From: an uncultured Verrucomicrobiota bacterium
Lineage (GTDB): Bacteria; Verrucomicrobiota; Verrucomicrobiia; Limisphaerales; CAIQOK01
Direction: 5' to 3'
Length of the DNA stretch: 51,540 bases
Assembly (NCBI GenBank): GCA_903873415.1
Contig: CAIQOK010000139.1
Span: 1-51,540, forward strand
The position numbers were made by a program, and so were the translations under genes. Positions within the stretch are counted from its first letter, which is position 1; the number at the start of each line of letters is the position of its first letter. The notes under the pieces were generated by a model. It saw only the letters and a list, made by a program, of their open reading frames with translations. It had not been told where the DNA came from and ran no database searches. Shown here piece by piece: positions 4,070 through 39,992 of the stretch.

Positions 4070-5917
4070 ATGCGTGAGGAATTTGAGAAGTTGGTCGTTA
4101 CAGGCAAGATCGAAGGGCGCCACGTGGAAACGTTGGTGCAGTTGGCCACGAGCGGTTGCTGCATGCACCGCAGCTGGGGCTTTGGCCGGATCAAGACCGT
4201 TGACACGATCTTTGGCCGCTTCACGATTGATTTCCCCGGCAAGCCCGGACACACCATGGATCTGGCTTTCGCGGCGGATTCCCTCAAGCCGATCTCCAAG
4301 GATCATGTGCTGGCCCGCAAGGCGGCCGATCTGGAGGGCCTGCGCCAGATGGCGGCGACGCATCATCTCGAACTGGTCAAACTTGTCCTCAACAGCTATG
4401 GCGGCCACGCCACCGTGGACCAGATTCAGCAGGCGTTGGTCCCGGAGGTCATCCGTGATGATTGGAAGAAATGGTGGGAGGCGGCCAAGCGTGAATTGAA
4501 AAAAGACGGGCACTTTCAAGTCCCCCTCAAGAAGTCGGAACCCGTCATTTATCAGGCGAAGGAAGTCTCCCTTCAGGACCGGCTCATGGCGGAGTTCCGC
4601 CCCGCCAAAGGATTGAAAGCCCGTTTCACCGTCGCCGCCGAGATTCTCAAGAACGCCGCCGACCTTTCCAATCCTGCTGCCGCTGCGAAGGAGATCTGCA
4701 CGGCCCTCAACGCCGAGATTCCCAGTTATCAGCGCACCCAGCCGGCTGTGGCCCTTGAGGCCATTTTTGTCCGCGATGAAATCCGGGTCTTGGGAGGCCA
4801 GCAGCCCACGCCCGGCGAGGTCACCTCGGCGACCATCTGGGCCCAGGAGATGAGACTAGGCACGCTCCTCGAGGCGGTCCCCGCCGCCCGACATCGCCGC
4901 GCGCTGGAATCCTTCATCGAAGCCCATCCTCAGGACTGGCAGCATCTGCTGCTTACCAACCTCAATTCGGTCTCGTCCCGATTGTGCCGCGAGTTTGCCG
5001 CGCTGCTCATTGAAAACGGCAAGATGGCCGAACTCAAGGAGGCGGTATCACGCTTGATCAGCCAGCACAGCGCCAGCAGCGAGTTGCTCCTCTGGTTCGC
5101 CCGGGAACGCACCGACGCATTTGTGGATATTCTGGGACCGGAAGTCTTCCGCGCCATGCTGACATCCATGGAGCGCGATCAGTTTAACGAGAAACGCTCC
5201 AACCGGCTCCGTGATTTCATCCTGTCCGATCAGGAGTTGCTGCCGGAACTGACCGCCTCGGCCGAACTGGAATTCATCAAAGACCTCACCCGCGCGCTCC
5301 AGCTTTCGCCCGTGTTTGATGACATGGACAAACGCTCGCTCCTGGCCCGCATCGTCAAGAGCCACCCCTCCGTGCAATCGCTCATCAGCGGCGAGCAGTC
5401 GAAGCAGGAGTCCACATTGATTGTGTCTTGGGCCAGCTTGGAGCGGCGGAAAAACGAGTATGCCGATCTGGTGCATAAGAAAATTCCGGCCAACTCCAAG
5501 GAGATCGCCATAGCCCGCAGTTACGGCGACCTGCGCGAAAACCACGAGTACAAGGCCGCCAAGGAAATGCAAAAGATTCTCATGCGCCGCAAGGACGAGC
5601 TGGAATCGCAAATTGTGCGGGCCCGGGGAACGGATTTCACCAATCCACGGGTGGACGTCGCCAGTGTCGGCACGACCGTTCATGCCACCAATCTGGCGAC
5701 CAGCCAGCGCGAATCATTCACCATTCTAGGGGCGTGGGACTCCGACCCGGAGAAGGGCATTGTCAGTTATCTCTCCCCCGTCGCCCAGGCTTTGCTCAAT
5801 CGCAAACCGTCTGATGAGGTTGAGTTTGAGATCCACGGGGCGCGCCATCAGCACCGTCTCGAGAGCATCGAGGCGGCCACGATCTCCATTCCGGAGGTTG
5901 CCGAAACGAAACCGTAA
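4070..5917 (+). CDS. greA: Transcription elongation factor GreA with long N-terminal extension
   Basis: 615 residues, about four times the usual GreA length (near 158). The last ~160 residues are a recognisable GreA: an antiparallel coiled coil carrying SYGDLRENHEYKAAKE, whose Asp and Glu match the acidic tip that inserts into the RNA polymerase secondary channel and stimulates cleavage of backtracked RNA. An FKBP-like C-terminal domain follows, with the VGTTVHA and YLSPVAQALL region. The first ~440 residues are helical and have no motif I recognise; similar long extensions occur in GreA of Chlamydiae and Verrucomicrobia. It diverges from rsmB with about 50 bases between starts and ends just before a strong terminator. 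Confidence 0.9.
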   Translation: MREEFEKLVVTGKIEGRHVETLVQLATSGCCMHRSWGFGRIKTVDTIFGRFTIDFPGKPGHTMDLAFAADSLKPISKDHVLARKAADLEGLRQMAATHHLELVKLVLNSYGGHATVDQIQQALVPEVIRDDWKKWWEAAKRELKKDGHFQVPLKKSEPVIYQAKEVSLQDRLMAEFRPAKGLKARFTVAAEILKNAADLSNPAAAAKEICTALNAEIPSYQRTQPAVALEAIFVRDEIRVLGGQQPTPGEVTSATIWAQEMRLGTLLEAVPAARHRRALESFIEAHPQDWQHLLLTNLNSVSSRLCREFAALLIENGKMAELKEAVSRLISQHSASSELLLWFARERTDAFVDILGPEVFRAMLTSMERDQFNEKRSNRLRDFILSDQELLPELTASAELEFIKDLTRALQLSPVFDDMDKRSLLARIVKSHPSVQSLISGEQSKQESTLIVSWASLERRKNEYADLVHKKIPANSKEIAIARSYGDLRENHEYKAAKEMQKILMRRKDELESQIVRARGTDFTNPRVDVASVGTTVHATNLATSQRESFTILGAWDSDPEKGIVSYLSPVAQALLNRKPSDEVEFEIHGARHQHRLESIEAATISIPEVAETKP

Positions 5918-5946
5918 ACCAAGCGGCGTCGGATCCCCCCTCAACC

Positions 5947-5985
5947 GGGGCGCGAGGAAAACATTTTCCCCGCGCCCTTTTCTTT
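5947..5985 (+). terminator. Rho-independent terminator of greA
   Basis: GC-rich arms GGGCGCG and CGCGCCC enclose a second AT-rich pairing (GGAAAA with TTTTCC), followed directly by TTTTCTTTT. It begins 30 bases after the greA stop and precedes the convergent DUF5069 gene. Confidence 0.9.
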
Positions 5986-5998
5986 TCAGGCGCCGGTC

Positions 5999-6448
5999 CT
6001 AGACCCTCCCGCCAAAGCTCGCGTAATCATCCACATCGAGCCATTCAAACCAGGTTCCAATGTCCTCACGGTTGGGCGCCCCTTTGGAAACCTGATCATT
6101 GAAGTAAGCCCGGGACTCGGCGTCGGACGGCACGCGCTGCTCAGCAAACGCGGACCAAGAGGCCACTTCCGGTTCGGTGCGCTTGTGGGGTGCGTGCCGG
6201 GTGATCCACTGCAGCAATTCGCCGTCGCCGTGGCCTGCGGCCACTTGCTGCTTGAGGGCTTCGGGGTCGATCCCGGTGAAGTCCAGAAACCGCTGGTCCA
6301 AGGGGCAGGCGTAATGGTATTCGCCGTTTTTGCCTGCCAGCAGGGCGCGGCATTTGTCGAGCATGCGGGGCAGGATGACGTAACCGCCCAGCCGGACGCG
6401 CGGGCTGCGCGGGGGTTGCTTGGTGAGGTCGGGGCTGTGAGTGTTCAT
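5999..6448 (-). CDS. DUF5069 domain-containing protein
   Basis: 149-residue soluble protein with the layout of the DUF5069 family. The N-terminal PRSPRVRLGGYVILPRMLDK is followed by the family-typical region DKCRALLAGKNGEYHYACPLDQRFLDFTGID, and near the C-terminus by WFEWLDVDDY. The family is frequent in Verrucomicrobia and Planctomycetes and has no established function. It is a single gene, convergent with greA and separated from it by the greA terminator. No promoter is clear. Confidence 0.8.
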   Translation of the reverse strand: MNTHSPDLTKQPPRSPRVRLGGYVILPRMLDKCRALLAGKNGEYHYACPLDQRFLDFTGIDPEALKQQVAAGHGDGELLQWITRHAPHKRTEPEVASWSAFAEQRVPSDAESRAYFNDQVSKGAPNREDIGTWFEWLDVDDYASFGGRV

Positions 6449-6600
6449 GGTCTTAAGGAATCAATGATGTTTTTTAGGTTGGCTGAAACCGGCCCGCCGT
6501 TTCGGACCGCAGCGGGATAAATTGTGCAGCGAATCGAAATAATAGCAAGACGGCGGCGCGCGGTGGCCCGGACTTCTCCTCAATGCTTCAAAGGCGGAGC

Positions 6601-6629
6601 TTGACCTACTACAGGGCATTCTCTAGGAT
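6601..6629 (+). promoter_or_regulatory. Predicted sigma70-type promoter of the ilv leader
   Basis: TTGACC (6601-6606) and TAGGAT (6624-6629) are separated by 17 bases. Transcription would start near 6636, at or next to the ATG of the leader peptide, so the leader mRNA may be leaderless. The alternative is that AGGA (6625-6628) acts as a Shine-Dalgarno, 7 bases before the ATG, and the promoter lies further upstream. Confidence 0.6.
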
Positions 6630-6635
6630 GAATCC

Positions 6636-6710
6636 ATGTTGCAGAAATTTCGGCATTTAGCCCGGGTCGTCGTAGTAGGATGCGACGCCGTTGGCGCTTG
6701 TCGAAACTGA
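6636..6710 (+). CDS. ilv operon attenuator leader peptide (valine-rich)
   Basis: 24-codon ORF from ATG 6636 to TGA 6708-6710. Codons 11-14 are GTC GTC GTA GTA, four valines in a row, with a fifth Val at codon 19 and Leu at codons 2 and 8. It lies between a predicted promoter and an intrinsic terminator, about 80 bases before ilvB. The layout matches known branched-chain amino acid leader peptides such as IvbL and IlvL: ribosome stalling at Val codons when Val-tRNA is scarce would prevent the terminator from forming. That role is inferred from the arrangement. The ORF is too short for ordinary gene finders. Confidence 0.8.
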   Translation: MLQKFRHLARVVVVGCDAVGACRN

Positions 6711-6725
6711 TCACGTTTTAACAAG

Positions 6726-6758
6726 AACCCACGGCTGGCAACGGTCGTGGGTTTTTTA
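6726..6758 (+). terminator. Attenuator terminator upstream of ilvB
   Basis: Arms AACCCACG (6726-6733) and CGTGGGTT (6746-6753) enclose a 12-base loop and run into a T-tract. It lies between the leader peptide and ilvB. Upstream hairpin: CGTCG (6668-6672) pairs with CGACG (6683-6687) over the Val codons. Candidate antiterminator: CCGTTGG (6688-6694) can pair with the 5' arm region CCCACGG (6728-6734) with one mismatch, which would exclude the terminator. Confidence 0.85.
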
Positions 6759-6793
6759 TTATCCGCGCCGTGCCGCCACAATCAATAAAAAGT

Positions 6794-8680
6794 ATGAGCA
6801 AGCCCCCACCCATTGCCGGAAAGAAAAAAACCGCCCCCCGGCGCGCCGAGGTCGGCGCAGCCATGTTCGGCCGCGATATCCTGGTCGAAGCACTCGAACG
6901 CGAAGGGGTCGAAGTCATCTTCGCCTACCCCGGGGGCGCCAGCATGGAGATCCACCAGTCGCTGACCAAATCCAAAAAAATCCGCACCATTCTTCCACGC
7001 CACGAGCAGGGCGGGAGCTTTGCCGCCGAGGGCTATGCCCGCGTGACCGGCAAGGCAGGCGTCTGCATGACCACCAGCGGCCCCGGCGCCACTAACCTGG
7101 TCACCGCCATCGCCGATGCCTACATGGATTCCTGCCCGCTTATCGCCATCACCGGCCAGGTCAATCAAGCCATGATCGGGCGCGGCGCATTTCAGGAAAC
7201 CGACATCATCGGTGTGACCCTGCCGATTGTGAAGCACTCCTACCTCATCACCGATGTCAATGATATCGCGCGTATCGTCAAGGAGGCGTTCTACATCGCC
7301 CAGTCCGGGCGCCCCGGCCCGGTGGTTATCGACTTCCCAAAGAACGTCCAGCAGGCCAAGGCCCAGCCGGTCTGGCCAACGCTTGAAGAGGTCAAGAAGG
7401 GTTTGCGCGGCTATGACCAACCCGAACTGCGCGCCGACGAGGTGGCGTTGAACGAGATCATCGGCCTCATCGAAAAGGCGGAGCGCCCGGTTCTTTATTG
7501 CGGTGGCGGCATTGTCTCCAGCGGGGCGGCCGCCGAACTGAAAAAATTCGCCGAGGCGGCCAACATTCCCGTGACGACTACCCTCATGGGTATCGGCGCC
7601 TTTCCCGAGACCCATCCGCTCTCGCTGCGCTGGCTTGGCATGCACGGCGCCGCCTTTGCCAACTGGGCCGTCAATGGCGAATACGAGCAACGCATGAACG
7701 TTGCCGACCCCATGGTCAAGCTCAAGGACGGCGCGGACCTGCTGCTGGCCTTCGGCGTGCGTTTTGACGACCGTGTGACCGGGAAGTTCGAGGAATTCTG
7801 CAAGCACGGCACCATTGTCCACCTGGATATTGACGCCTCGGAATTGAACAAGAACCGCAAAGCCCACCTGCCGGTGGTGGGCAATATCAAGGACGCATTG
7901 ACCCGTCTGAACCGGTTGCTGTCCCAGCGGCCTTTGGCCAAGAAACACACCTCCTGGCTGGCGCAGATCGAGGAGTGGAAAAAGAAAGGCCCCTTCGCCT
8001 ACGAAATCACCAGCGAAATCGCCAACAGCGACCACATGAAAGACCATCTGGCCGGCCAGGAAAACCAGGTCATACTCCAGCAGATGGTGGTGGAGACGCT
8101 TTATGAATTGACCAAGGGCGAAGCTTATATCACTACCGGCGTCGGCCAGCACCAGATGTGGGCCGGCCAGTGGTATAAGTACAAATACCCCCGCCAGTTT
8201 GTCACCAGCGGCGGCCTCGGCTCTATGGGCTATGGCTATCCCGCCGCGCTTGGCATGAAGGTCGCCTTGCCCGACAAACAGGTGGTGGATATCGACGGGG
8301 ACGGATCATTCCTGATGAATATCCAGGAACTGGCCACGGCGCATGTGGAGAAGATCAATGCCAAGGCCATCATCCTGAACAACCAGCATCTCGGAATGGT
8401 GGTTCAGTGGGAGGATAATTTCTTCGACGGCAACCGCGGCCACACCTACCTCGGCAACCCCGAAGACCGCGCCCAAGTTTATCCCGATTACGTCCGCGTC
8501 TGCAATTCATTCAATGTGAAATGCGAGCGGGTCATGTATAAAAAAGATCTCCGGGCCGCCATCCAGCGGATGCTTGATGCCGACGAACCCTACGTATTGG
8601 ACGTCATTGTTCCTTATAGCTCGCACGTGCTGCCGTTCATCCCAGCCGGGCGGACCGTGGCGGACATGATTTGGAAATAA
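6794..8680 (+). CDS. ilvB: Acetolactate synthase large (catalytic) subunit
   Basis: 628 residues. This ThDP-dependent enzyme condenses pyruvate with pyruvate or 2-oxobutyrate, the first common step of Val, Leu and Ile synthesis. Seen in the sequence: the catalytic Glu in PRHEQGGSFAAEGYA (N-terminal Pyr domain), the FDDR motif of the central FAD-binding domain, and a GDG...NN ThDP/Mg site beginning GDGSFLMNIQEL in the C-terminal PP domain. The start MSKPPP at 6794 is preferred to an ATG eight codons upstream. No ilvN regulatory subunit follows: the next gene is ubiE on the opposite strand. Expression is probably controlled by the Val-codon attenuator just upstream. Confidence 0.95.
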   Translation: MSKPPPIAGKKKTAPRRAEVGAAMFGRDILVEALEREGVEVIFAYPGGASMEIHQSLTKSKKIRTILPRHEQGGSFAAEGYARVTGKAGVCMTTSGPGATNLVTAIADAYMDSCPLIAITGQVNQAMIGRGAFQETDIIGVTLPIVKHSYLITDVNDIARIVKEAFYIAQSGRPGPVVIDFPKNVQQAKAQPVWPTLEEVKKGLRGYDQPELRADEVALNEIIGLIEKAERPVLYCGGGIVSSGAAAELKKFAEAANIPVTTTLMGIGAFPETHPLSLRWLGMHGAAFANWAVNGEYEQRMNVADPMVKLKDGADLLLAFGVRFDDRVTGKFEEFCKHGTIVHLDIDASELNKNRKAHLPVVGNIKDALTRLNRLLSQRPLAKKHTSWLAQIEEWKKKGPFAYEITSEIANSDHMKDHLAGQENQVILQQMVVETLYELTKGEAYITTGVGQHQMWAGQWYKYKYPRQFVTSGGLGSMGYGYPAALGMKVALPDKQVVDIDGDGSFLMNIQELATAHVEKINAKAIILNNQHLGMVVQWEDNFFDGNRGHTYLGNPEDRAQVYPDYVRVCNSFNVKCERVMYKKDLRAAIQRMLDADEPYVLDVIVPYSSHVLPFIPAGRTVADMIWK

Positions 8681-28691: not shown

Positions 28692-28938
28692 TCCGCTTCA
28701 GGTCGCTATTCTCCGCCGCGGCCCGAGTGGCCCGGGCTCGGGCGACAGATCGCGGGTGCGTGCCGTCGTCTAAAATAGTTCTTTCAAACGGAAATGCGTG
28801 CGGTTTTTTCTCGACAAAACACACATTCGACTGGCACATACATTTCAGCAGTGCGTCAAATCCAGAGCCCATCAGTTGTTATGGTGCAGTCTCGGCGGGG
28901 CCTTTATTCCCCTCATTAGGCTCTCCATTCCCTGTTGT

Positions 28939-28944
28939 TATACT
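28939..28944 (+). promoter_or_regulatory. -10 box of the tagD-tagF-NRPS unit
   Basis: TATACT ends 5 bases before the GTG start at 28950, so transcription should begin at or one base after that codon. No good -35 hexamer is seen 17 bases upstream (TTAGGC at 28916-28921 is the best). Confidence 0.45.
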
Positions 28945-28949
28945 GCAAA

Positions 28950-29339
28950 GTGAAGTTAAACCGAGTAATAACCTATGGCACATACGACATTTTACATGGC
29001 GGCCATATTAATTTGTTGCGGCAGGCAAAAGCCATGGGTGATTACCTGACGGTGGGGCTCTCCAGCGACCCCTTCAATAAAATTAAAAAGAAAGTCTCCT
29101 ATAATCCTCTCGCGGCCCGTAGAACAGTTCTCGAGGCGATACGCTATGTCGACCGGGTCATTATCGAGGAAACCTGGGAGCAAAAGATGGAAGACGTGAT
29201 CAAATACGAAATTGACGTGCTCGTCATGGGGGACGATTGGCTGGGGAAGTTTGATTTTCTGAAAACAGTTTGCGAGGTGGTTTATCTGCCAAGGACCAAA
29301 GGTGTTTCATCATCGCAGATAAAAGCCGGACTTCTTTGA
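28950..29339 (+). CDS. tagD: Glycerol-3-phosphate cytidylyltransferase (TagD/GCT type)
   Basis: 129 residues, typical for TagD. Makes CDP-glycerol from CTP and sn-glycerol 3-phosphate. The CTP-binding motif HxGH appears as HGGH within GTYDILHGGHINLLRQAK (about residues 8-25), and the second signature RTxGxSS appears as RTKGVSSSQIK near the C-terminus. The GTG at 28950 gives the usual VITYGTYDILH start; a TTG five codons upstream is also possible. The stop overlaps the TTG start of the next gene, indicating translational coupling. CDP-glycerol is best known for teichoic acid in Gram-positives, so its partner gene here is notable. Confidence 0.92.
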   Translation: MKLNRVITYGTYDILHGGHINLLRQAKAMGDYLTVGLSSDPFNKIKKKVSYNPLAARRTVLEAIRYVDRVIIEETWEQKMEDVIKYEIDVLVMGDDWLGKFDFLKTVCEVVYLPRTKGVSSSQIKAGLL

Positions 29340-30535
29340 AACAACCCACTTTTTTGCATCTGTTCAAGGAACTGGCAAGGGAGCTTGTTTATTGGGTTTA
29401 TTGGGCGATTCCCAAATTCCCATTCGCCGTCGTCTATGGCTCCCCTGATTTGGAGGACAATGCGTTGGCACTTCAGTCCGCGCTGAACGCAACCAGTTTG
29501 CGCAAGGTGGTGCTGCTTGTGGTCAATCCGGACAACGCCGCCGGTTTCGAGCTGGCACCCAAGACGATCGTTGTGCGCAAAGACTCGATGCGCGGTTCGG
29601 CTTGGTTCCTTTTTGCAAAGTATGTTTTTTTCACGCACCGCTGCTTCATGTACCGTTTCCCGTCCAAGGTCGTCTCTGTCAATTTATGGCATGGAATGCC
29701 AATCAAGAAAGTCGGCTGGATGCTTAAAGGAAATCGCGGTTATGAATCCCGCTACTCGATTGCCACATCGGATTTCTGGGCCGGGTATGTGCAGAAATCA
29801 CTCCGCCCGTTCGGGCAGACCCTCGTCACGGGACTCCCGCGCAACGACCGCCTTTTTCTGCCCTCCCACAACCTGTGGCAGCGCCTGGGCCTAGCCGCAA
29901 CCGTGGGGAGCAAAAAAACTCTCGGCTGGCTCCCCACCTACCGCCAGAGTTTTCGCGGCGAGATCAGGGCCGACGGCGTGGAAAGCGGGAATGTCTTTGG
30001 CCTCGAAGGCCTCTCGCCTGAAGCGTTAAATGTTTTCCTGAAAAAACAGGGCGGCTTTGCCATAGTCAAACCGCATCCCATGGCTCAGGCCTCCGAAAAC
30101 CTTCAACTCAGCAATCTCCTGATTATAAATGACCAGTGGCTGCAAAAGCATCAAACATCCCTCTATGAGCTGCTCGGTCAATGCAGTGTTCTGGTCTCTG
30201 ACATTTCCAGTGTGGTCGTTGATTATTTGCTTCTCAACCGGCCGGTCATCCACCTTATTCCCGACTTGAAGGAGTATCAGAATTCCCGCGGCTTTTCGCT
30301 CGAGCCCTTGGAAAAATATCTGGCGGGCCCCCTGGTCACCAACTCGGAAGAGCTTTTCTCGCAACTGGCGCCCACCTTGAATGGCCAAGATTCCCATGCC
30401 GCTCAACGTGAACGCGTGTTGCAATTGTTTCACAAGGACCGTGACAATCGCTCCACTTCGAGACTGCTGTGGCAATTGAACTTGAGTCCTCAACCATTCC
30501 CGCCAATGAGCGGGCCCGGCTCAGAAGCGGCGTGA
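29336..30535 (+). CDS. CDP-glycerol glycerophosphotransferase, TagF/TagB-like
   Basis: 399 residues. GT-B-like glycerophosphotransferase expected to move glycerol phosphate from CDP-glycerol to an acceptor. Seen: NLWHGMPIKKVGWM (family QxWHGTPLK), TGLPRNDRLF, LPTYRQSF (family APTWR), KPHP (about residue 264), and SDISSVVVDYLLLNRPVIHL (family TDYSSVxFDY). The His residues of WHG and KPHP, catalytic in TagF, are both kept. The start is placed at the TTG at 29336 overlapping the tagD stop; the frame is open further upstream only inside tagD. The start of the protein is amphipathic, as in membrane-associated TagF. The NRPS gene follows after 16 bases. Confidence 0.88.
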   Translation: MKQPTFLHLFKELARELVYWVYWAIPKFPFAVVYGSPDLEDNALALQSALNATSLRKVVLLVVNPDNAAGFELAPKTIVVRKDSMRGSAWFLFAKYVFFTHRCFMYRFPSKVVSVNLWHGMPIKKVGWMLKGNRGYESRYSIATSDFWAGYVQKSLRPFGQTLVTGLPRNDRLFLPSHNLWQRLGLAATVGSKKTLGWLPTYRQSFRGEIRADGVESGNVFGLEGLSPEALNVFLKKQGGFAIVKPHPMAQASENLQLSNLLIINDQWLQKHQTSLYELLGQCSVLVSDISSVVVDYLLLNRPVIHLIPDLKEYQNSRGFSLEPLEKYLAGPLVTNSEELFSQLAPTLNGQDSHAAQRERVLQLFHKDRDNRSTSRLLWQLNLSPQPFPPMSGPGSEAA

Positions 30536-30551
30536 AACTCAGTTGCCTCTT

Positions 30552-33500
30552 ATGACCCAGTCCGAACGGCATCAGATCCTCGTCGAGTGGAACCGGACGG
30601 AGCGGGAGTATCCGCGGGACAAGTGCGTGCATCAGTTGTTCGAGGAGCAGGCGGAGAGGACCCCTGAGGCGGTGGCTGTGGAGTTTGCGGAGCGGTCGCT
30701 GACCTACCGCGAACTTGACGTGCAGGCCGGGCGGCTTGCCGCGCATCTGCGCTCGCTGGGGGTGGGCCCGGACGCGCTGGTGGGCCTCTGCGTGGAGCGC
30801 TCGCTGGAAATGACGGTGGCGCTGCTGGGCATCCTCAAGGCGGGCGGCGCCTATCTGCCATTGGATCCGGACCTTCCGCCCGAGCGCTTGGCCTTCATGC
30901 TTCAGGACTCCAACCTGCCTGTTCTGATCACTCAGCGCCGGCTGGCTGGACGCGTCGGCATCTCAGCGGCGCACAGGGTGTGGATTGATGAATGCGGGTG
31001 GCAGACGGAGCCGGAGACCCCGCCGCAAACCGGCCCATCCACTTCGCTGGCTTACGTGCTCTACACTTCCGGTTCGACCGGCCAGCCCAAGGGCGTTCAG
31101 ATTTCCCATCAGGCTCTGGTCAACTGCATCTGGCATTTCATCGAAACGTTGAAAATCCGCCCGCACGACGGCTGGATGGCTGTCACGACGCTTTCATTTG
31201 ATATCGCCGCCCTGGAAATTTGGCTCCCGCTCCTGGCCGGGGCGCGGGTGATTGTCGCCACCCGCGCGATGGCTCAGGACGGACAAATGCTCAACCGCGC
31301 ATTGATGGCTACCGGCGCCACAATCCTGCAGGCGACACCGGCCACCTGGCAGGCCTTGCTCCATTCCGGTTGGCAGGGAAACCCCAAACTCCGGATCCTC
31401 TGCGGCGGCGAAGCTCTGCCGCAGGCGCTCGCCGACCGCCTCGCCATGCTGGGTTCCTGCGCTTGGAACCTTTATGGGCCAACCGAAACAACAATCTATT
31501 CCTCCGACAATCAATTGCTCCCCCATAGTCCGGTCACGATCGGCCGTCCGCTCGCCAACACGCGGGTTTATATCCTCGACGCGGATGGCCGCCCCGTCCC
31601 CATCGGTGTGGCTGGAAATCTTGTGATCGGCGGCGACGGTCTGGCGCGTGGATATCTCAACCGGCCCGAACTAACCGCCGAACGATTCATTTCCGATCCT
31701 TTCTCCGCCACGCCTGGCGCCCGGCTTTACCGGACTGGAGACATTGCCCGCTGGCGGGCCGACGGCAACATCGAATACCTCGGACGCGCCGATCATCAGG
31801 TGAAAATCCGCGGCTACCGCATTGAGCTGGGGGAGATTGAGTCTGTTTTGGGCGGGCATCCTGGCGTCTCCGCCTGCACTGTGCTGGCCCGGGATCAAGG
31901 TGGCGGGGACAAGGTCCTGGCCGCCTTCGTGGTGGTCCGGAAGCCCGGCGGGCTGGATGCGGAAACGCTGAGGCAATGGCTCGGGGCTAAGCTGCCGGAC
32001 TACATGGTGCCGGCGCGGTTTTTTTCGGTGCCTGCGCTGCCGCTCACGCCCAATGGCAAGGTGGACCGCAAGGCCCTGGAAAAAACCGACGCAGTGGAGC
32101 TGGTCTCGGGGACGGACCACCTCGCGCCGCGCAGCCAAATTGAACGGGACTTGGTGGAGATATGGAAGGGGGTGTTGGGCCGCGAGAAGGTGGGCGTGCG
32201 GGACAACTTTTTCCATCTGGGCGGTCACTCGCTCCTGGCGGTGATGGTGTGCGCGCAGCTGAGGCAAAGGCTCAACCTGGATGTTTCCGTGCGTGCGCTC
32301 TTCGATCATCCCACGGTCGAGGGATTGGCGGGGCACTTGAAAGCGGCGGTGGTGGATTCCTCCGCTGCCAGCCCTGTTGAAAAGGCGGACCAGCGCCAGC
32401 CTCTGCCCCTGTCCTTTGCCCAGCAGGGAATGTGGTTCCTGCAGCAGACTCTGCCGGACCCGGCCACCTACAACCAGCCCGCGGCCATCCACCTGTCCGG
32501 CCCGGTGGATCAGGACCGGATCCGTCGGTGTCTGGATGTGATCGTCGGGCGCCATGAGATATTGCGCACGGCCTTGGTGCGGCAGGATGAAAGCCTGGTG
32601 CAGCAGGTTTTCGCCGCGAACGAATGCGCGCTGCCCTGGATGGAAGTGGACCTGCGGCTCTTGGCGCCGGACGGACAAACGTCCGCGCTGGAGGAGCGAT
32701 TGCTGGCCGAGGCGCGAAGACCCTTTGATCTGGCTCTGGCACCGTTGTGGCGGGTGGCGTGGATCAGGATTTCCGGCGATGAACAGGTGCTGGCCTTTAC
32801 CTTTCATCACAGCATCGTAGATGAATGGTCGGTGCGTTTGTTCCTCCGCGAGTTGGAGATTCTTTACGCGGTGGACGCGCAGGCCGGGCTGGCCGCTCTG
32901 CCCCCTTTGCCTGTGCAATACGCCGATCACGCCCTGTGGCAGAGGCGGCGCTTGACTGGGGAGCGGCTTGCAACACACCTGGGCTACTGGCGCGAGCAAC
33001 TCCGGGATTTGCCGCCCCCCTTGGAACTGCCCTCCTGTTTTCCGCGCCCGGCCCGGCCCGGGGGGCGCGGGGCGACGCGTCGTTTCCGGCTCGAGGGCCC
33101 GGTCGCGGCCCGGATGCGCCAGCTGGCCAGCGAGGAAGGGGCGACCCTCTTCACCGTGATGCTTGCGGTCTTTCAGGTCTGGCTGCATCGGCACACCGGT
33201 GCGGGCGATGTTGTGGTCGGCACGCCGATGACCGGCCGGGACCGGCCGGAGGTGCAGTCGTTGCTGGGGCTTTTCCTGAACATGCTGCCCATCCGCACCC
33301 GGGTGGATCCGGGCCGGAATTTCCGCGAAGTTCTGCGGCAGGTGCGGGCCACTTTGCTGGATGCCCTGAGCCACGCGGAACTGCCCTTTGAGCAGATGGT
33401 TGGGCTTGCGGTTAGGGACCGCTCCCCGCGATGGCAACCCTTGTATCAGGTTATGTTTGTGTTGTTGGAGGGGGAATCTTTTCTGCCGCAATTGGGGCTG

Positions 33501-36398
33501 GCCCGGGGTCGGCATATTCCGGCCCGCACCGGGACGAGCAAGAGCGATCTGGTCTTGAGCATCCAGGCCGGGGAAGAGGGATGGGAATGCGAGTTTGAAT
33601 ACGACACGGACCTGTTCAGCGGGGAGGGTGTGGCCGCGATGTCGAGGCACCTGACGGAGCTGCTGCGCTCGATCGGGCAGCATCCTGAGCAGGCTGTCGG
33701 CGGACTGAACCTGCTGCCGGAGTCGGACCGGCATCAGATCCTTGTCGAGTGGAACCGGACGGAGCGGGAGTATCCGCGGGACAAGTGCGTGCATCAGTTG
33801 TTTGAGGAGCAGGTGGAGAGGACCCCCGAGGCGGTGGCTGTGGAGTTTGCGGAGCGGTCGCTGACCTACCGCGAACTTGACGCGCAGGCCGGGCGGCTTG
33901 CCGCGCACCTGCGCTCGCTGGGGGTGGGCCCGGACGCGCTGGTGGGCCTCTGCGTGGAGCGCTCGCTGGAAATGACGGTGGCGCTGCTGGGCATCCTCAA
34001 GGCGGGCGGCGCCTATTGTTCCTTGGATGAGACCCTGCCGGACGAACGGCTGGGCTGGATACTGGCCGATGCGCGCCCGGTTCTGCTGCTCGCGCGGGGC
34101 CGGTTGCTGCCGCGTCTGGCCAATCTGGCCGGTTCAATCCCGGTGAACCCGCCCGTCGTGGCCGGCATTGAGGATCTATTGTCGGCACCGTCAGGCGGCC
34201 CCTGTTTTGGTGATCCGCGGCCGCGGCCGCTCAGTCCGGTTTACGTGAGCTACACGTCCGGATCGACCGGCCACCCCAAGGGCGTGGTGGTGCCGCATCG
34301 CGGAGTCGTGCGCTTGGTCAAGGGGGTTGATTATGCTTCGTTCAGCGCGGCGGAGACCTTTCTGCACCTGTCTCCGCTGTCGTTTGATGCGTCCACTTTT
34401 GAGATCTGGGGCCCGCTGCTCAACGGGGGACGACTGGTGCTGCTGCCGCCGGGGCAGCCCTCGCTGGTGGAGATTGGTACCGTCATCGGCCGGCGTGGAG
34501 TCACCACCTTGTGGCTTACGGCGGGCCTGTTTCATCTCATGGTGGATGAGCGCTTGGACGATCTGAAACCGTTGCGCCAGTTGTTGGCTGGAGGGGATGT
34601 GCTCTCGCCCGGGCATGTCAGCCGGGCGCGCCGGGGGCTGCCGGGCTGCCGGATCATCAACGGCTACGGTCCGACGGAGAACACCACCTTCACCTGTTGC
34701 CACACCGTGACGGAGGAAAACGCATCGGGTGCGGGCGTGCCGGTGGGGCGTCCGGTTTCAAACACGCAAGTGTATGTGCTGGACCCGTTTCTACGCCCGG
34801 TTCCAGCGGGTGTGCCCGGCGAGCTGTACGCCGGAGGCGACGGTCTGGCGCTCGGCTATTTGAACCGGCCGGAGCTGACGGCGGAGAAATTCATTCCCAG
34901 TCCCTTTGCGGCCGGCGCCCGGCTTTATCGGACTGGGGACATCGCCCGCTGGCGGGCCGACGGCAACATCGAATACCTCGGACGCGCCGATCATCAGGTG
35001 AAAATCCGCGGCTACCGCATTGAGCTGGGGGAGATTGAGTCTGTTCTGGGGGGGTATCCCGGCATTTCCGCCTGTGGTGTGCTGGCCCGGGATCAAGGCG
35101 GCGGGGACAAGGTCCTGACCGCCTTCGTGGTGGTCCGGAAGCCCGGCGGGCTGGATGCGGAAACGCTGCGGGAATGGCTGGGCGCAAAGCTGCCGGACTA
35201 CATGGTGCCGGCGCGGTTCTTTTCGGTGGCGGCGCTGCCGCTCACGCCCAATGGCAAGGTGGACCGCAAGGCCCTGGAAAAAACCGACGCAGTGGAGCTG
35301 GTCTCGGGGACGGACTACCTCGCGCCGCGCAGCCAAATTGAACGGGACTTGGTGGAGATATGGAAGGGGGTGTTGGGCCGCGAGAAGGTGGGCGTGCGGG
35401 ACAATTTTTTTCATCTGGGCGGCCACTCGCTGACGGCGGTGCGGTTGACCGGGCAAGTTGAGAAGGTATTCGGATGCAAGTTGCCCATAGCGTCTTTGTT
35501 CCAGTCGCCCACTATTGAAGCGCTGGCGCGGCGGCTGGGGGAGAAGGACTGGAAGTCGCCCTGGAGTTCGCTGGTTGCTCTCCAACCGCTGGGTTCAAAA
35601 CCGCCCTTGTTTTTCGTTCATGGTGTCCGCGGTGAAGTGTATCGCTATTTGGACTTGATCAAACATTTGCCGGCGGACCAGCCCTGTTACGGTATCCAAG
35701 CAGTCGGGTTGGACGATAAATCCGCTCGCCACAGGACGGTTGAAGAAATGGCGGCCCACTACGTTGGGGAAATTCTTCAATTGCAACCGGAGGGTGCTTA
35801 TTATCTGGCCGGCTATTCAATGGGAGGGTTGGTGGCTTATGAGATGGCGCGGCAACTTCAGCGTCAAGGCCGGCGCGTTTTGTTTTTGGGCCTCTTGGAC
35901 AGTGGACCCGCAGGCAAGGTTCCGGTTTTTTTCTACGGATTACAGATGGCTTTTTATCTTCCCCGCCGCTGCTGGTTTCATCTGCGAAGATGGTTCGGAC
36001 TGCCCGTGGCGGAGCGTTTTGATTACTTGCGCCGGCGCTGGCGCTCACTTCTAATTCTGATCACCCGCAACTGGTCAAATCCTCCGGCAGTGGCGGCTGC
36101 GCCGGAGAAAAAACTGCAAGGTCCTGAGGTTCCGGCTGGTTTTATCGATTACTACCACATGGTGGCCTCAGCCTATCAGCTCCAGCCCTATCCCGGAGCC
36201 GTCGATGTTTTTGTTAGTGACCAATACGCTCCCGGCTGGAAAACGTACTGGAAACATCTGGCCCGCGGTGGAGCCGCCTTCCATCGGATTCCGGGCCAGC
36301 ATTTTGAGATATTCAACCCTGACAATGTGGTTGTGTTTGCTCAATTATTCAGGTCCTCGCTTCATCGGGCTCAAGCGAAGGAACAGGATTCCGTGTAA
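30552..36398 (+). CDS. Two-module non-ribosomal peptide synthetase, A-PCP-C-A-PCP-TE
   Basis: 1948 residues. Module 1: adenylation (LYTSGSTGQPKG about residue 170, YGPTETT about 306) and carrier protein (LGGHSL about 555, Ser is the phosphopantetheine site), with no condensation domain in front. Module 2: condensation (FHHSIVDEWS about 752; HHxxxD kept, last Gly replaced by Glu), adenylation (YTSGSTGHPKG about 1233), carrier (LGGHSL about 1622). A type I thioesterase ends the protein (GYSMGG near 1753; His in GQHFEIF near 1914). By eye against GrsA the pocket codes are DILQLGLIYK (module 1, glycine-like) and DAFWLGGTFK (module 2, valine-like), so a Gly-Val dipeptide or derivative is the predicted product. 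No phosphopantetheinyl transferase or MbtH gene is in the window. It lies in one transcription unit with tagD and the TagF-like gene. Confidence 0.95.
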   Translation: MTQSERHQILVEWNRTEREYPRDKCVHQLFEEQAERTPEAVAVEFAERSLTYRELDVQAGRLAAHLRSLGVGPDALVGLCVERSLEMTVALLGILKAGGAYLPLDPDLPPERLAFMLQDSNLPVLITQRRLAGRVGISAAHRVWIDECGWQTEPETPPQTGPSTSLAYVLYTSGSTGQPKGVQISHQALVNCIWHFIETLKIRPHDGWMAVTTLSFDIAALEIWLPLLAGARVIVATRAMAQDGQMLNRALMATGATILQATPATWQALLHSGWQGNPKLRILCGGEALPQALADRLAMLGSCAWNLYGPTETTIYSSDNQLLPHSPVTIGRPLANTRVYILDADGRPVPIGVAGNLVIGGDGLARGYLNRPELTAERFISDPFSATPGARLYRTGDIARWRADGNIEYLGRADHQVKIRGYRIELGEIESVLGGHPGVSACTVLARDQGGGDKVLAAFVVVRKPGGLDAETLRQWLGAKLPDYMVPARFFSVPALPLTPNGKVDRKALEKTDAVELVSGTDHLAPRSQIERDLVEIWKGVLGREKVGVRDNFFHLGGHSLLAVMVCAQLRQRLNLDVSVRALFDHPTVEGLAGHLKAAVVDSSAASPVEKADQRQPLPLSFAQQGMWFLQQTLPDPATYNQPAAIHLSGPVDQDRIRRCLDVIVGRHEILRTALVRQDESLVQQVFAANECALPWMEVDLRLLAPDGQTSALEERLLAEARRPFDLALAPLWRVAWIRISGDEQVLAFTFHHSIVDEWSVRLFLRELEILYAVDAQAGLAALPPLPVQYADHALWQRRRLTGERLATHLGYWREQLRDLPPPLELPSCFPRPARPGGRGATRRFRLEGPVAARMRQLASEEGATLFTVMLAVFQVWLHRHTGAGDVVVGTPMTGRDRPEVQSLLGLFLNMLPIRTRVDPGRNFREVLRQVRATLLDALSHAELPFEQMVGLAVRDRSPRWQPLYQVMFVLLEGESFLPQLGLARGRHIPARTGTSKSDLVLSIQAGEEGWECEFEYDTDLFSGEGVAAMSRHLTELLRSIGQHPEQAVGGLNLLPESDRHQILVEWNRTEREYPRDKCVHQLFEEQVERTPEAVAVEFAERSLTYRELDAQAGRLAAHLRSLGVGPDALVGLCVERSLEMTVALLGILKAGGAYCSLDETLPDERLGWILADARPVLLLARGRLLPRLANLAGSIPVNPPVVAGIEDLLSAPSGGPCFGDPRPRPLSPVYVSYTSGSTGHPKGVVVPHRGVVRLVKGVDYASFSAAETFLHLSPLSFDASTFEIWGPLLNGGRLVLLPPGQPSLVEIGTVIGRRGVTTLWLTAGLFHLMVDERLDDLKPLRQLLAGGDVLSPGHVSRARRGLPGCRIINGYGPTENTTFTCCHTVTEENASGAGVPVGRPVSNTQVYVLDPFLRPVPAGVPGELYAGGDGLALGYLNRPELTAEKFIPSPFAAGARLYRTGDIARWRADGNIEYLGRADHQVKIRGYRIELGEIESVLGGYPGISACGVLARDQGGGDKVLTAFVVVRKPGGLDAETLREWLGAKLPDYMVPARFFSVAALPLTPNGKVDRKALEKTDAVELVSGTDYLAPRSQIERDLVEIWKGVLGREKVGVRDNFFHLGGHSLTAVRLTGQVEKVFGCKLPIASLFQSPTIEALARRLGEKDWKSPWSSLVALQPLGSKPPLFFVHGVRGEVYRYLDLIKHLPADQPCYGIQAVGLDDKSARHRTVEEMAAHYVGEILQLQPEGAYYLAGYSMGGLVAYEMARQLQRQGRRVLFLGLLDSGPAGKVPVFFYGLQMAFYLPRRCWFHLRRWFGLPVAERFDYLRRRWRSLLILITRNWSNPPAVAAAPEKKLQGPEVPAGFIDYYHMVASAYQLQPYPGAVDVFVSDQYAPGWKTYWKHLARGGAAFHRIPGQHFEIFNPDNVVVFAQLFRSSLHRAQAKEQDSV
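30567..30854 (+). repeat. NRPS module repeat, N-terminal A-domain block, copy 1
   Basis: Aligns without gaps to 33729-34016; about 6 differences in 288 bases by eye. It encodes the A-domain start from RHQILVEWN to the AGGAY motif. Similarity stops abruptly after that motif. Confidence 0.9.
31716..32233 (+). repeat. NRPS module repeat, A-domain C-terminal part plus carrier, copy 1
   Basis: Aligns without gaps to 34914-35431; about 26 differences in 518 bases by eye. It covers LYRTGDIARW through the carrier-protein LGGHSL motif. Confidence 0.9.
33729..34016 (+). repeat. NRPS module repeat, N-terminal A-domain block, copy 2
   Basis: Partner of 30567-30854, offset 3162 bases. Confidence 0.9.
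34914..35431 (+). repeat. NRPS module repeat, A-domain C-terminal part plus carrier, copy 2
   Basis: Partner of 31716-32233, offset 3198 bases. The 36-base difference from the first block's offset lies in the unlike pocket cores between the blocks. Confidence 0.9.
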
Positions 36399-36639: not shown

Positions 36640-37536
36640 TCAGGAAACCGACCAGCTGAGGATGGCTTTTTGGACATGAAGCCGGTTTTCTGCCTCCTCG
36701 AATATTGTTCCGGCATGGGCTTCCAGAGTTGGCTCGTCAATTTCCTTGCCGCGGTAGGCCGGCAGACAGTGCATCACCAGCGCGTCGGGTCGTGCCAGAT
36801 CAACCAGTTCTTGGTTGATCTGGTAGCCCGTCAGGGTATCGATGCGATCTTTGGCTTCGGCTTCCTTGCCCATGGAAATCCACACATCCGTATAGAGCAG
36901 GTCGGCCCCTTGGGCGGCGTCTTGAATGTTGGACGTCACGGAGATGCGGCCGCCGGCGCGGCGGAGGATTTGTTGCGGGGGTTGAAAGGGGGAGGGCGAG
37001 GCGATGCGCAGTTCGAATCCGAACTTGGCCGCCGCAAAGATCCAGGAATTGGCCACATTGCAGGCGCCGTCACCGATGAACGCCACGGTTCTGCCTCGAA
37101 TGGATCCGCGTTTTTCTTGGAACGTGAAAATATCGGCCAGGATTTGGCAGGGATGCTCGTCGTCGGTCAGCGCGTTGATGGTTGGGAGACCGGAGTAGGC
37201 GGCGAATTCCTCCACATCCTGCTGGGCAAAGGTGCGGATGACCGCGCCGTGAAGCATCCGGCCCATGACCCGGGCGGTGTCCTTGATAGGCTCGCCGCGG
37301 CCTAGTTGGATATCGTTGGAGCTGAGAAACATCACTTGGCCGCCGAGTTCCCGGATGCCGACCTCGAAGGAGATGCGGGTGCGGGTGGACTGCTTTGAGA
37401 AGAGCAGCGCCCATGTGTGCCCGGCCAGCGGCTGCGAGGTGTGGCGACCCCGTTGCGCCTTGAGCGTGGTTGTCGCCGACAGAATACCTTCCATGTCCGC
37501 CAAGGACAGGGTCTCGAGTTTCAGCAAGCTTTTCAT
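36640..37536 (-). CDS. argF: Ornithine carbamoyltransferase
   Basis: 298 residues. Condenses ornithine and carbamoyl phosphate to citrulline. Seen: the carbamoyl-phosphate motif SxRTR in SKQSTRTRISFE (about residues 48-59), FLSSNDIQLGRGEP, DDEHPCQILAD, and the ornithine-binding MHCLPAYRGKEI with its catalytic Cys. The start at ATG 37536 (MKSLLKLETL) fits the family; the open frame upstream overlaps argD. Last gene of argB-argD-argF, 37 bases after argD. The 241 bases to the NRPS stop (36399-36639) hold only two 36-38-codon frames that resemble nothing. Confidence 0.96.
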   Translation of the reverse strand: MKSLLKLETLSLADMEGILSATTTLKAQRGRHTSQPLAGHTWALLFSKQSTRTRISFEVGIRELGGQVMFLSSNDIQLGRGEPIKDTARVMGRMLHGAVIRTFAQQDVEEFAAYSGLPTINALTDDEHPCQILADIFTFQEKRGSIRGRTVAFIGDGACNVANSWIFAAAKFGFELRIASPSPFQPPQQILRRAGGRISVTSNIQDAAQGADLLYTDVWISMGKEAEAKDRIDTLTGYQINQELVDLARPDALVMHCLPAYRGKEIDEPTLEAHAGTIFEEAENRLHVQKAILSWSVS

Positions 37537-37573
37537 TTTGCGGAAATGTCGAGACTCGCAGGTGGGCGGACGA

Positions 37574-38857
37574 TTATCCAGCCAATTTCGCGGCCACGGA
37601 TTCAATCAGGTCCAATCCTTCGCCGGCGTCGATCCGTGGCAGGTTCAGGGCCGGCAAGAGGCGGACAATATTTGTGCCGGCAGGGATAGTGAGTAGTCCG
37701 GCTTCATGCAGCCGGTTCACAAAGCGGATTGAAACAGGCTTGGCAGAATCCCCGGGCAAGGAGGGTATATTCTCCGCCAGTTCCATGCCCAGCATCAATC
37801 CCAGTCCGCGCGCGCCGCGGAGGATGGCGGGATATTTTTGTGCCAGAGCCTCAATACCGCGTTGCAAAACTTCGCCGGTCTGGCGGGCGTGGTCGGCGAG
37901 GTTTTCCCTGCGGATGACTTCCAGGATTTTCAGGGCGACGGCGCAACCCAGCGGCGTGCCGCCGTAGGTTGTGCCGTGGGTGCCGGCGCCCAGCAGGTCC
38001 GCATAGGGTGAACGCACCCAGAAAGCCCCAATGGGGAAACCGCCTCCGAGAGATTTGGCCATGGAGATGGCGTCGGGCAGGAAGTTTTCCCCACCCGGGA
38101 CGCCTTCGAGGATTCGTTGGTAGCTTTGAAACCGGCCCGTCCGGAAGTGGCCGCACTGCACGGAGTCCATAAGCAGCAGCAGTTGTTTCTCGTCGCACAA
38201 CCGGCGCAGAGCCAGCAAATATTCCGCTGTGGCGGGCGTGACCCCACCCTCGCCTTGAATGCCCTCGATCAATACCGCGACCGTGGCGGGCGAAATGGCG
38301 TCGCGCATTGCTTGGGGATTGTTGAAGGGCACATGCCGGAAGCCTGGCGTCATTGGTTCAAACCCCTTTTTCACCTTGTCTTGGCCGGTGGCGGCGATGC
38401 CGGCAAGGGTGCGGCCGTGAAAGGAGTTGAGCGTGGTGAGTATTTCAAACCGGCCTTGGTCATGGCCGTATTTGCGCGCCAGTTTGTAAAGGCCTTCGTT
38501 TGCCTCGGCGCCACTGTTGCAGAAAAAAACCTTTCCGGGTGCGATCAGGTTTGACAGGGCCTCAGCCAAGCGGCCCTGGGGCTCGTGGTAGTAGAGGTTG
38601 GAGACATGTACCAGCTTGCGGGATTGCTCAATGAGAGCCTCGGTGATGGCCGGATGGGCATGGCCGAGGGAGTTGACGGCGATGCCGCCACCCAGGTCCA
38701 GATAGCGATTGCCGGCGACGTCGAAAACATGGCTGCCCGATCCGTGGGTGAAGGCCAGATCAAACCGGCCGTAACTGGGGACGACGTGCTGGTGGAACAG
38801 TCCGCGAATGGCTTCAAACGGGCTGCCGGCGGCGGGGCTGGTGATGGGTTCGCTCAT
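37574..38857 (-). CDS. argD: Acetylornithine aminotransferase
   Basis: 427 residues, class III PLP aminotransferase. Converts N-acetylglutamate semialdehyde plus Glu to N-acetylornithine. Seen: NSGAEANEGLYKLARKYG, SFHGRTLAGIAATGQ, the PLP-nitrogen Asp in LLMDSVQCGHFRTGRF (the usual DE(V/I)QxG has Ser in place of Glu), and the Schiff-base Lys in DAISMAKSLGGGFPIGAF. The start is the ATG at 38857 (MSEPITSPAAG). Middle gene of the arginine unit, 55 bases after argB. A diaminopimelate or succinylornithine role also occurs in this family, but the neighbours argue for arginine. Confidence 0.95.
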   Translation of the reverse strand: MSEPITSPAAGSPFEAIRGLFHQHVVPSYGRFDLAFTHGSGSHVFDVAGNRYLDLGGGIAVNSLGHAHPAITEALIEQSRKLVHVSNLYYHEPQGRLAEALSNLIAPGKVFFCNSGAEANEGLYKLARKYGHDQGRFEILTTLNSFHGRTLAGIAATGQDKVKKGFEPMTPGFRHVPFNNPQAMRDAISPATVAVLIEGIQGEGGVTPATAEYLLALRRLCDEKQLLLLMDSVQCGHFRTGRFQSYQRILEGVPGGENFLPDAISMAKSLGGGFPIGAFWVRSPYADLLGAGTHGTTYGGTPLGCAVALKILEVIRRENLADHARQTGEVLQRGIEALAQKYPAILRGARGLGLMLGMELAENIPSLPGDSAKPVSIRFVNRLHEAGLLTIPAGTNIVRLLPALNLPRIDAGEGLDLIESVAAKLAG

Positions 38858-38912
38858 AAAACAATGGTTTTGACGGCACAGGGATTTAAAGGAGACAAAT
38901 ATAAACCGGCAT

Positions 38913-39794
38913 TCAAGGGACAACCTCTGTTCCAACGCCCTTGTCGGTGAAGATTTCCAGCATGACAGAATGCGCCACGCGGCCGTCCACCAAGGACACC
39001 TGCTCCACCCCGGCCCGGATCGCCGCCACCGCGCTGTCCACCTTGGGTATCATGCCCTTGTCCACGATTCCGGCAGCCTTAAGCCCCGGAACCTCACCGA
39101 TTCGCAAATGGGTGATGAGCGTGGCGGGGTCCTTTGGATCGCGCATCAGGCCCGGGACGTCGGACATGAAGACGAGCCGTCGCGCGTTCAAGGCAATGGC
39201 AGCCATCGCCGCTGCGACGTCGGCATTGCAGTTGTAGATTTTCCCGTCCTCGCCTCGCGCCGTTGGACTGATCACCGGGGTGAATCCGCACCAGATGGAT
39301 TCCTTGAGTGGCGCGACATTAACCTCGATCACTTCGCCCACGTAGCCGATGTCCAGCTTGCGGCCGGGATGCTCCTTGTCATCGAGCCAGAGTTTGCGGC
39401 ATTTGAAAATGTCCGGACCGGCAAAGCCCACCGCCCTGCCGCCCAAGGCGTTGATGGTCCGGACCACCTCCGGGTTGATTTCGCGGGAGAGGACATCATC
39501 GACAATTTGGGCTGTGGCCTCGTCGGTGACGCGCTGACCCTGAATGAAATCGGCTTTGAGCCCCGCCTTTTCCATGGCGCGGGTGATGGCCTTGCCGCCG
39601 CCGTGGACGACGACCGGGTTGATCTCCACGGCTTCCAGGAAGACGATGTCCCGGGCCACGCCCTGACGCAGTGCGGGATCGGGGGAGTCCATGAACGATC
39701 CCCCGTATTTCACGACGAAGGTGGCGCCGCTGAATTTCTGGATGTAGGGGAGCGCTTCAAGCAGCGTGCCCGCTTTGGCAATCAGGTCTTGCAT
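38913..39794 (-). CDS. argB: Acetylglutamate kinase
   Basis: 293 residues. Phosphorylates N-acetylglutamate, the second step of arginine synthesis. Seen: FVVKYGGSFM (phosphate binding), VVVHGGGKAIT with the three Gly, GQRVTD, YNCNADVAAA, FMSDVPGLM, and GGMIPKV-type KGMIPKVDSAVAAI near the C-terminus. Arg residues compatible with the arginine-sensitive hexameric type are present at the N-terminus, but inhibition cannot be read off. First gene of argB-argD-argF; argC, argJ, argG and argH are not in the window. The start at ATG 39794 (MQDLIAKAGTL) is the family start. Confidence 0.96.
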   Translation of the reverse strand: MQDLIAKAGTLLEALPYIQKFSGATFVVKYGGSFMDSPDPALRQGVARDIVFLEAVEINPVVVHGGGKAITRAMEKAGLKADFIQGQRVTDEATAQIVDDVLSREINPEVVRTINALGGRAVGFAGPDIFKCRKLWLDDKEHPGRKLDIGYVGEVIEVNVAPLKESIWCGFTPVISPTARGEDGKIYNCNADVAAAMAAIALNARRLVFMSDVPGLMRDPKDPATLITHLRIGEVPGLKAAGIVDKGMIPKVDSAVAAIRAGVEQVSLVDGRVAHSVMLEIFTDKGVGTEVVP

Positions 39795-39992
39795 GGCATC
39801 AAATAGTTGTCCGCGGTGATTCAACAGGGAATGCGGACGGAATTCAAACCGGAACATTCAACCAGGCTTGGGCAGGGAAGCGGAACGGACGGTCCGCCAA
39901 GGCGGGCCGGCGCTCCGATTTTCCGGGGCCTTGGGGCGTAAGGGGATTCACCGGGGAGGCTGCAAAAAGTCTGGTGAGGCCGATGGTATCTT

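Follow-up and report, generated by a model that had tools for sequence, protein, structure and literature searches.

Near-identical flanks around unlike adenylation cores in a two-module peptide synthetase gene of an uncultured Verrucomicrobiota bacterium

A 51,540-nucleotide stretch of an uncultured Verrucomicrobiota genome (contig CAIQOK010000139.1, hereafter the window) carries on its forward strand a non-ribosomal peptide synthetase (NRPS) gene (30552-36398), in which the two adenylation-carrier units are almost identical on both sides of the substrate pocket and plainly unlike within it. We consider it likely that these are two old and distinct modules whose flanks have been homogenised by repeated gene-conversion-like exchange within the genome, with a third module on another contig (C157) taking part, and that module 1 had earlier received a glycine-type core. 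The left exchange tract would start in the C-A linker and end at motif A2, and the right one would start at A7, include Asub and end at GGHSL in the carrier protein; exchange would have spared the substrate-selecting core as well as the carrier-protein half turned towards the following domain (C or TE). We infer that the exchanges were conversions, and the data are equally compatible with reciprocal exchange.

The two-module gene and its blocks

The open frame extends from a TTG start at 30543 to 36398, with the first ATG at 30552, and is unbroken over 1948 codons. Pfam detects two AMP-binding, two PP-binding, one Condensation and one Thioesterase domain in the order A1-T1-C-A2-T2-TE, i.e. A, T and C in sequence followed by a release domain as in a type I modular NRPS, and the translation shows the motifs GGHSL, GYSMGG, YTSGSTG and PNGK. 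The genome belongs to Verrucomicrobia subdivision 3, and the condensation domain of this gene (32397-33728, forward strand) is the only one detected in it. Judging from the domain content, A1 would load a small residue, perhaps glycine, onto T1, the C domain would link this residue with an aliphatic one on T2, and the TE would free the dipeptide or hand it to an acceptor, the predicted substrates being read from the ten pocket letters alone.

The two A-T units were aligned by codons, and a blind two-state segmentation of this alignment (all features on the forward strand) yielded two blocks per module. The N block, from the C-A linker to the A2 motif (KAGGAY), occupies 30567-30854 in module 1 and 33729-34016 in module 2 and is 97.9% identical over 288 nt; the C block at 31716-32233 and 34914-35431 comprises A7 (YRTGD), Asub and the first half of the carrier protein up to GGHSL and is 95.0% identical over 518 nt. 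The cores between them (30855-31715, 861 nt; 34017-34913, 897 nt) are 36-47% identical at the nucleotide level, the conserved A3 motif excepted, and the same range was found beyond the blocks. Both blocks, the dissimilar stretch of 860-900 bases between them and the sharp left boundary at AGGAY had been proposed in an initial annotation of this DNA, and all agree with the segmentation apart from one detail: the second block does not run through the carrier protein, as had been stated, and stops in mid-domain at FFxxGGHSL, the start of carrier-protein helix 2, behind which T1 and T2 no longer resemble each other. Along the sequence, where identity was followed in a sliding window, the change from block to core takes only a few bases, with ...GGCGGCGCCTAT continuing as CTGCCATTGG versus TGTTCCTTGG.

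The synonymous divergence between module 1 and module 2 is 0.055 in the N block and 0.147 in the C block, compared with 1.2 in the core and 1.15 downstream of the block. This clearly indicates a recent common sequence of the blocks, and conservation of the protein cannot account for the likeness of the flanks. The divergence is also uneven among the flank tracts themselves: the C block gives 0.20 and 0.087 for its two halves, the N block and the left part of the C block differ from each other (p 0.02), and 10 of the 26 bases that distinguish the C blocks fall within 60 nt (p 0.013). The N blocks differ at 6 bases, and the longest exact match between the modules, located at the N block edge, is 108 nt. 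Among 402 within-locus module pairs from 139 loci, only the pair in this NRPS combined a nucleotide identity of at least 85% in both flanks with a core below 70%. One-sided versions of the pattern were seen in a planctomycete and a cyanobacterium (L029, 7440-17855, and L025, 6549-17396), where three modules each have N-flanks with 90-94% nucleotide identity and unlike cores.

Relatives, conflicting trees and a third copy

The A-T-C-A-T-TE plan is common to two relatives (L022 and L035) and recurs as the terminal stretch of longer proteins in two others (L039 and L023). Their second adenylation cores are 52-66% identical to the A2 core of the window (62-66% for L022, L035 and L023, as well as for the single-module protein L082), and the pocket letters DAFLLGGTFK, of an aliphatic, valine-like type, are the same in all of them. 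The nearest relatives of the window's C domain are likewise the C domains of these four proteins (58% for L022, 53-55% for L023, L035 and L039), and in all five an HHxxxDE or HHxxxDD motif, HHSIVDE in the window, replaces the canonical HHxxxDG. Since distant relatives have the plan, the A2 core and the C domain in common with the window, modules 1 and 2 must have been separate long before their flanks became alike. The flanks themselves are closer to their paralogues in the same genome than to their orthologues: the N-flank is 97% identical between the window's own modules versus 57-77% with the dimodular relatives, and the C-flank 96% versus 45-64%.

The phylogenies of cores and flanks disagree, which was predicted in the initial annotation. 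A clade uniting the cores of the window's two modules is rejected (AU 1e-136), and so are trees that place the module 2 C-flank with the module-2-type flanks of L022, L035, L039 and L023 (AU 0.035) or the module 2 N-flank with that of L022 module 2 (AU 0.023), the N-flank trees being weak with 4 of 42 inner branches starred. The module 2 C-flank groups with module-1-type flanks instead (set support 97), which speaks for module 1 as the source and module 2 as the recipient of the copy. This direction, moderately supported by that one moderate test, would be the main one. The C-flank of L082 is likewise placed with the module-1 type; a flank of this kind may thus have been present in module 2 beforehand, which makes the direction uncertain. 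A strain-level relative with unconverted flanks was not found, and the sole genus sibling compared has no NRPS gene; the exchanges are thus not seen as direct events, and with relatives that are only 50-65% identical the order of events is coarse.

Additional evidence for exchange within the genome comes from C157, where an A-T-TE gene lies beside a phosphopantetheinyl transferase gene. Module 1 has 245 nt in common with this gene (31989-32233, forward strand, 93.5%) and module 2 has 401 ungapped nt (35175-35575, forward strand, 94.0%), comprising the A10 region, the whole T2 and the T-TE linker, while the likeness is confined to this inner tract and the core, the N side and the TE of the C157 gene are unlike their counterparts in the NRPS. 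The last 144 nt of the tract common to module 2 and C157 contain 1 synonymous change at 36 sites, compared with 15 at 61 in the preceding stretch (p 0.004). The tracts differ both in extent and in age; patches of this kind are the mark of repeated exchange, and the unequal synonymous divergence between them argues against one single event. The third module would have joined the exchange over this 245-401-nt tract.

The core of module 1 and rival explanations

The A1 core, with the glycine-like pocket letters DILALGLIYK assigned by alignment, falls into a clade of glycine-type cores (support 98/98). Its grouping with the module 1 core of L035 or L022 is rejected (2e-4 and 6e-6, respectively). 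In a first quick core tree a grouping with the L035/L078 cores was not rejected (AU 0.57), because a better tree had escaped the free search; in a careful tree with fewer rows it was rejected (0.02). The modules in which the other glycine-type cores reside have very different flanks, whereas the flanks of A1 are of the family type. Furthermore, L022, L035 and L039 carry other cores at the module-1 position beside the invariant A2 code, and the first-core pocket letters in the relatives are DLTIVGEVGK, DIFTNALIYK and DLTIVGHVGK. A glycine-type core in family-type flanks, together with the other first cores of the relatives, marks the first core as a position of turnover. The conflict between core and flank trees and the sharp edges at core motifs support a replacement of the module 1 core, in which the family-type flanks would have been kept, and this event appears to be separate from the flank likeness and older. 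The search for donor cores among relatives, as suggested in the initial annotation, yielded no close donor, with best matches of 56-57% in 320 genomes of the order and 55% in 384 genomes of the class; the replacement is therefore old or the donor unsampled.

One module could also be a recent duplicate of the other, with a core subsequently replaced from elsewhere. The flanks bracket the core exactly at reported natural hot spots of core swapping (PMC7486941, PMC8097286) and the A1 core differs in type from the cores of the relatives, as expected from this scenario; we nevertheless regard it as unlikely, since the two-module plan, the C domain, the A2 core and the second half of T1 all have counterparts in relatives, so that the modules predate the likeness of the flanks, and since neither the unequal synonymous divergence among the flank tracts nor the restriction of the C157 likeness to the inner tract is in line with it. 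Of the two origins offered in the initial annotation, duplication followed by core replacement thus holds for the replacement in module 1 and fails as a cause of the flank likeness, while gene conversion that keeps the flanks alike is favoured by the unequal divergence, the C157 tract and the position of the module 2 C-flanks among those of the module-1 type.

A chimeric assembly, in which the metagenome assembler collapsed or misjoined repeats, would be conceivable in a genome that is split over 189 contigs and with an exact match of the length found at the N block edge. A misjoin permutes cores among copies and would not make flanks that are near-identical yet distinct, and the differing bases in both blocks, the intact frame over the whole gene and an A2 core and TE arranged as in L022 and L035 make an artefact very improbable. 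It is also quite unlikely that module 2 owes its flanks to a wholesale merger rather than to module 1, with the likeness brought in by an A-T-C-A-T cassette whose flanks were similar beforehand and which came to lie between the TagD-TagF pair and the TE of an L082-like gene. This merger would fit the composition and the nearest relatives of the neighbouring parts, as described below, but it accounts for the ends of the cassette and not for the near identity inside, and it leaves the tract common with C157 in the same genome unexplained. We therefore retain repeated exchange between two old modules as the preferred explanation.

Core swaps and concerted evolution in NRPSs have already been described, and the NRPS of the window is a clean natural example. 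Natural replacement of the core leaves the C-A linker, Asub and the Asub-T region intact (Baunach 2021, PMC8097286), and its hot spots lie in the A2-A4 interval and from A5 onwards (Calcott 2020, PMC7486941); recombination of cores inside one genome (Booth 2022, PMC9205934) and breakpoints in the middle of the T domain (Fewer 2007, PMC2174460) are known as well. The window resembles these cases in its unlike cores between a conserved C-A linker and Asub-T, in its edges at motif A2 and near A7, and in the gain of a glycine-type core as in the wollamide synthetase. It differs in that the near-identical flanks occur in two modules of one enzyme, that recent movement mainly concerns the flanks and that no donor core was identified for this NRPS. 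As in the concerted evolution of NRPSs and PKSs (Medema 2014, PMC4256081), pieces of domains are homogenised in one cluster and parts are protected by functional divergence; here, in contrast, the tracts end inside domains, at positions resolved to single bases, and one participating module lies on another contig. On its right side, the C block ends in the same motif as the XUT IV fusion site (FFxxGGxS in the carrier protein, PMC12668312), and in both cases the half of the carrier protein facing TE or C is kept, although XUT is an engineering rule and the boundary described here a natural one. The tract ends reveal which parts of an NRPS are exchangeable: the stretches from the linker to A2 and from A7 to GGHSL move freely, whereas evolution leaves alone the pocket core and that half of the carrier protein which faces downstream, and these natural ends are the cut points used by engineers. 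Furthermore, trees of adenylation domains built from flanks or whole domains can mislead about the history of modules.

TagD, TagF and the thioesterase

Upstream of the NRPS, on the same forward strand, lie genes for a TagD-like glycerol-3-phosphate cytidylyltransferase (28935-29339; TIGR01518, 174 bits at a cut-off of 165) and a TagF/TarF-like CDP-glycerol glycerophosphotransferase (29270-30535; PF04464, 2.4e-39), the latter ending 16 bases before the NRPS ATG. In L082/L160, a bin of Verrucomicrobia subdivision 3 that belongs to the same order as the source genome, TagF is fused to A-T-TE in one protein of 1328 aa, and in L082 it is preceded by TagD. L082 is also the nearest relative of the window's TagF-like protein and of its low-GC thioesterase (35576-36398, forward strand; 58%, compared with 51% for C157 and 49% for L022). 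GC3 drops from 78% to 56% at 35565 in the T2-TE linker, a change point that was located without using the end of the C157 tract at 35575 and that coincides with it. Composition and nearest relatives suggest that the high-GC A-T-C-A-T part was inserted between an older TagD-TagF pair and the TE. A TagF of the type found beside the NRPS occurs in only 3 of the 384 class genomes, including that of the window, and in L159 TagD and TagF are present and an adenylation domain is absent.

Tentatively, the NRPS and the TagD- and TagF-like proteins may belong to a common pathway. An ancestral TagF-A-T-TE protein, which would have added one amino acid to a glycerol-phosphate product, as L082 suggests, could have gained the ability to add a dipeptide once its A-T part had been exchanged, at the linkers, for an A-T-C-A-T cassette, with conversion of the flanks afterwards. 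Our literature search for NRPSs linked with CDP-glycerol enzymes returned nothing relevant.

On the other side of the NRPS, argF-argD-argB-like genes (36640-39857) are oriented towards it, and the genus mate has these genes without an adjoining NRPS. Considered as a possible empty site, the genus mate yields no readable one, its argFDB and helicase regions being located on different contigs. On the contig of the third module (L097), the phosphopantetheinyl transferase gene (4183-4944) and the 3' end of the A-T-TE gene (4928-7609, minus strand) overlap, and the transferase could prime all carrier proteins in the genome.
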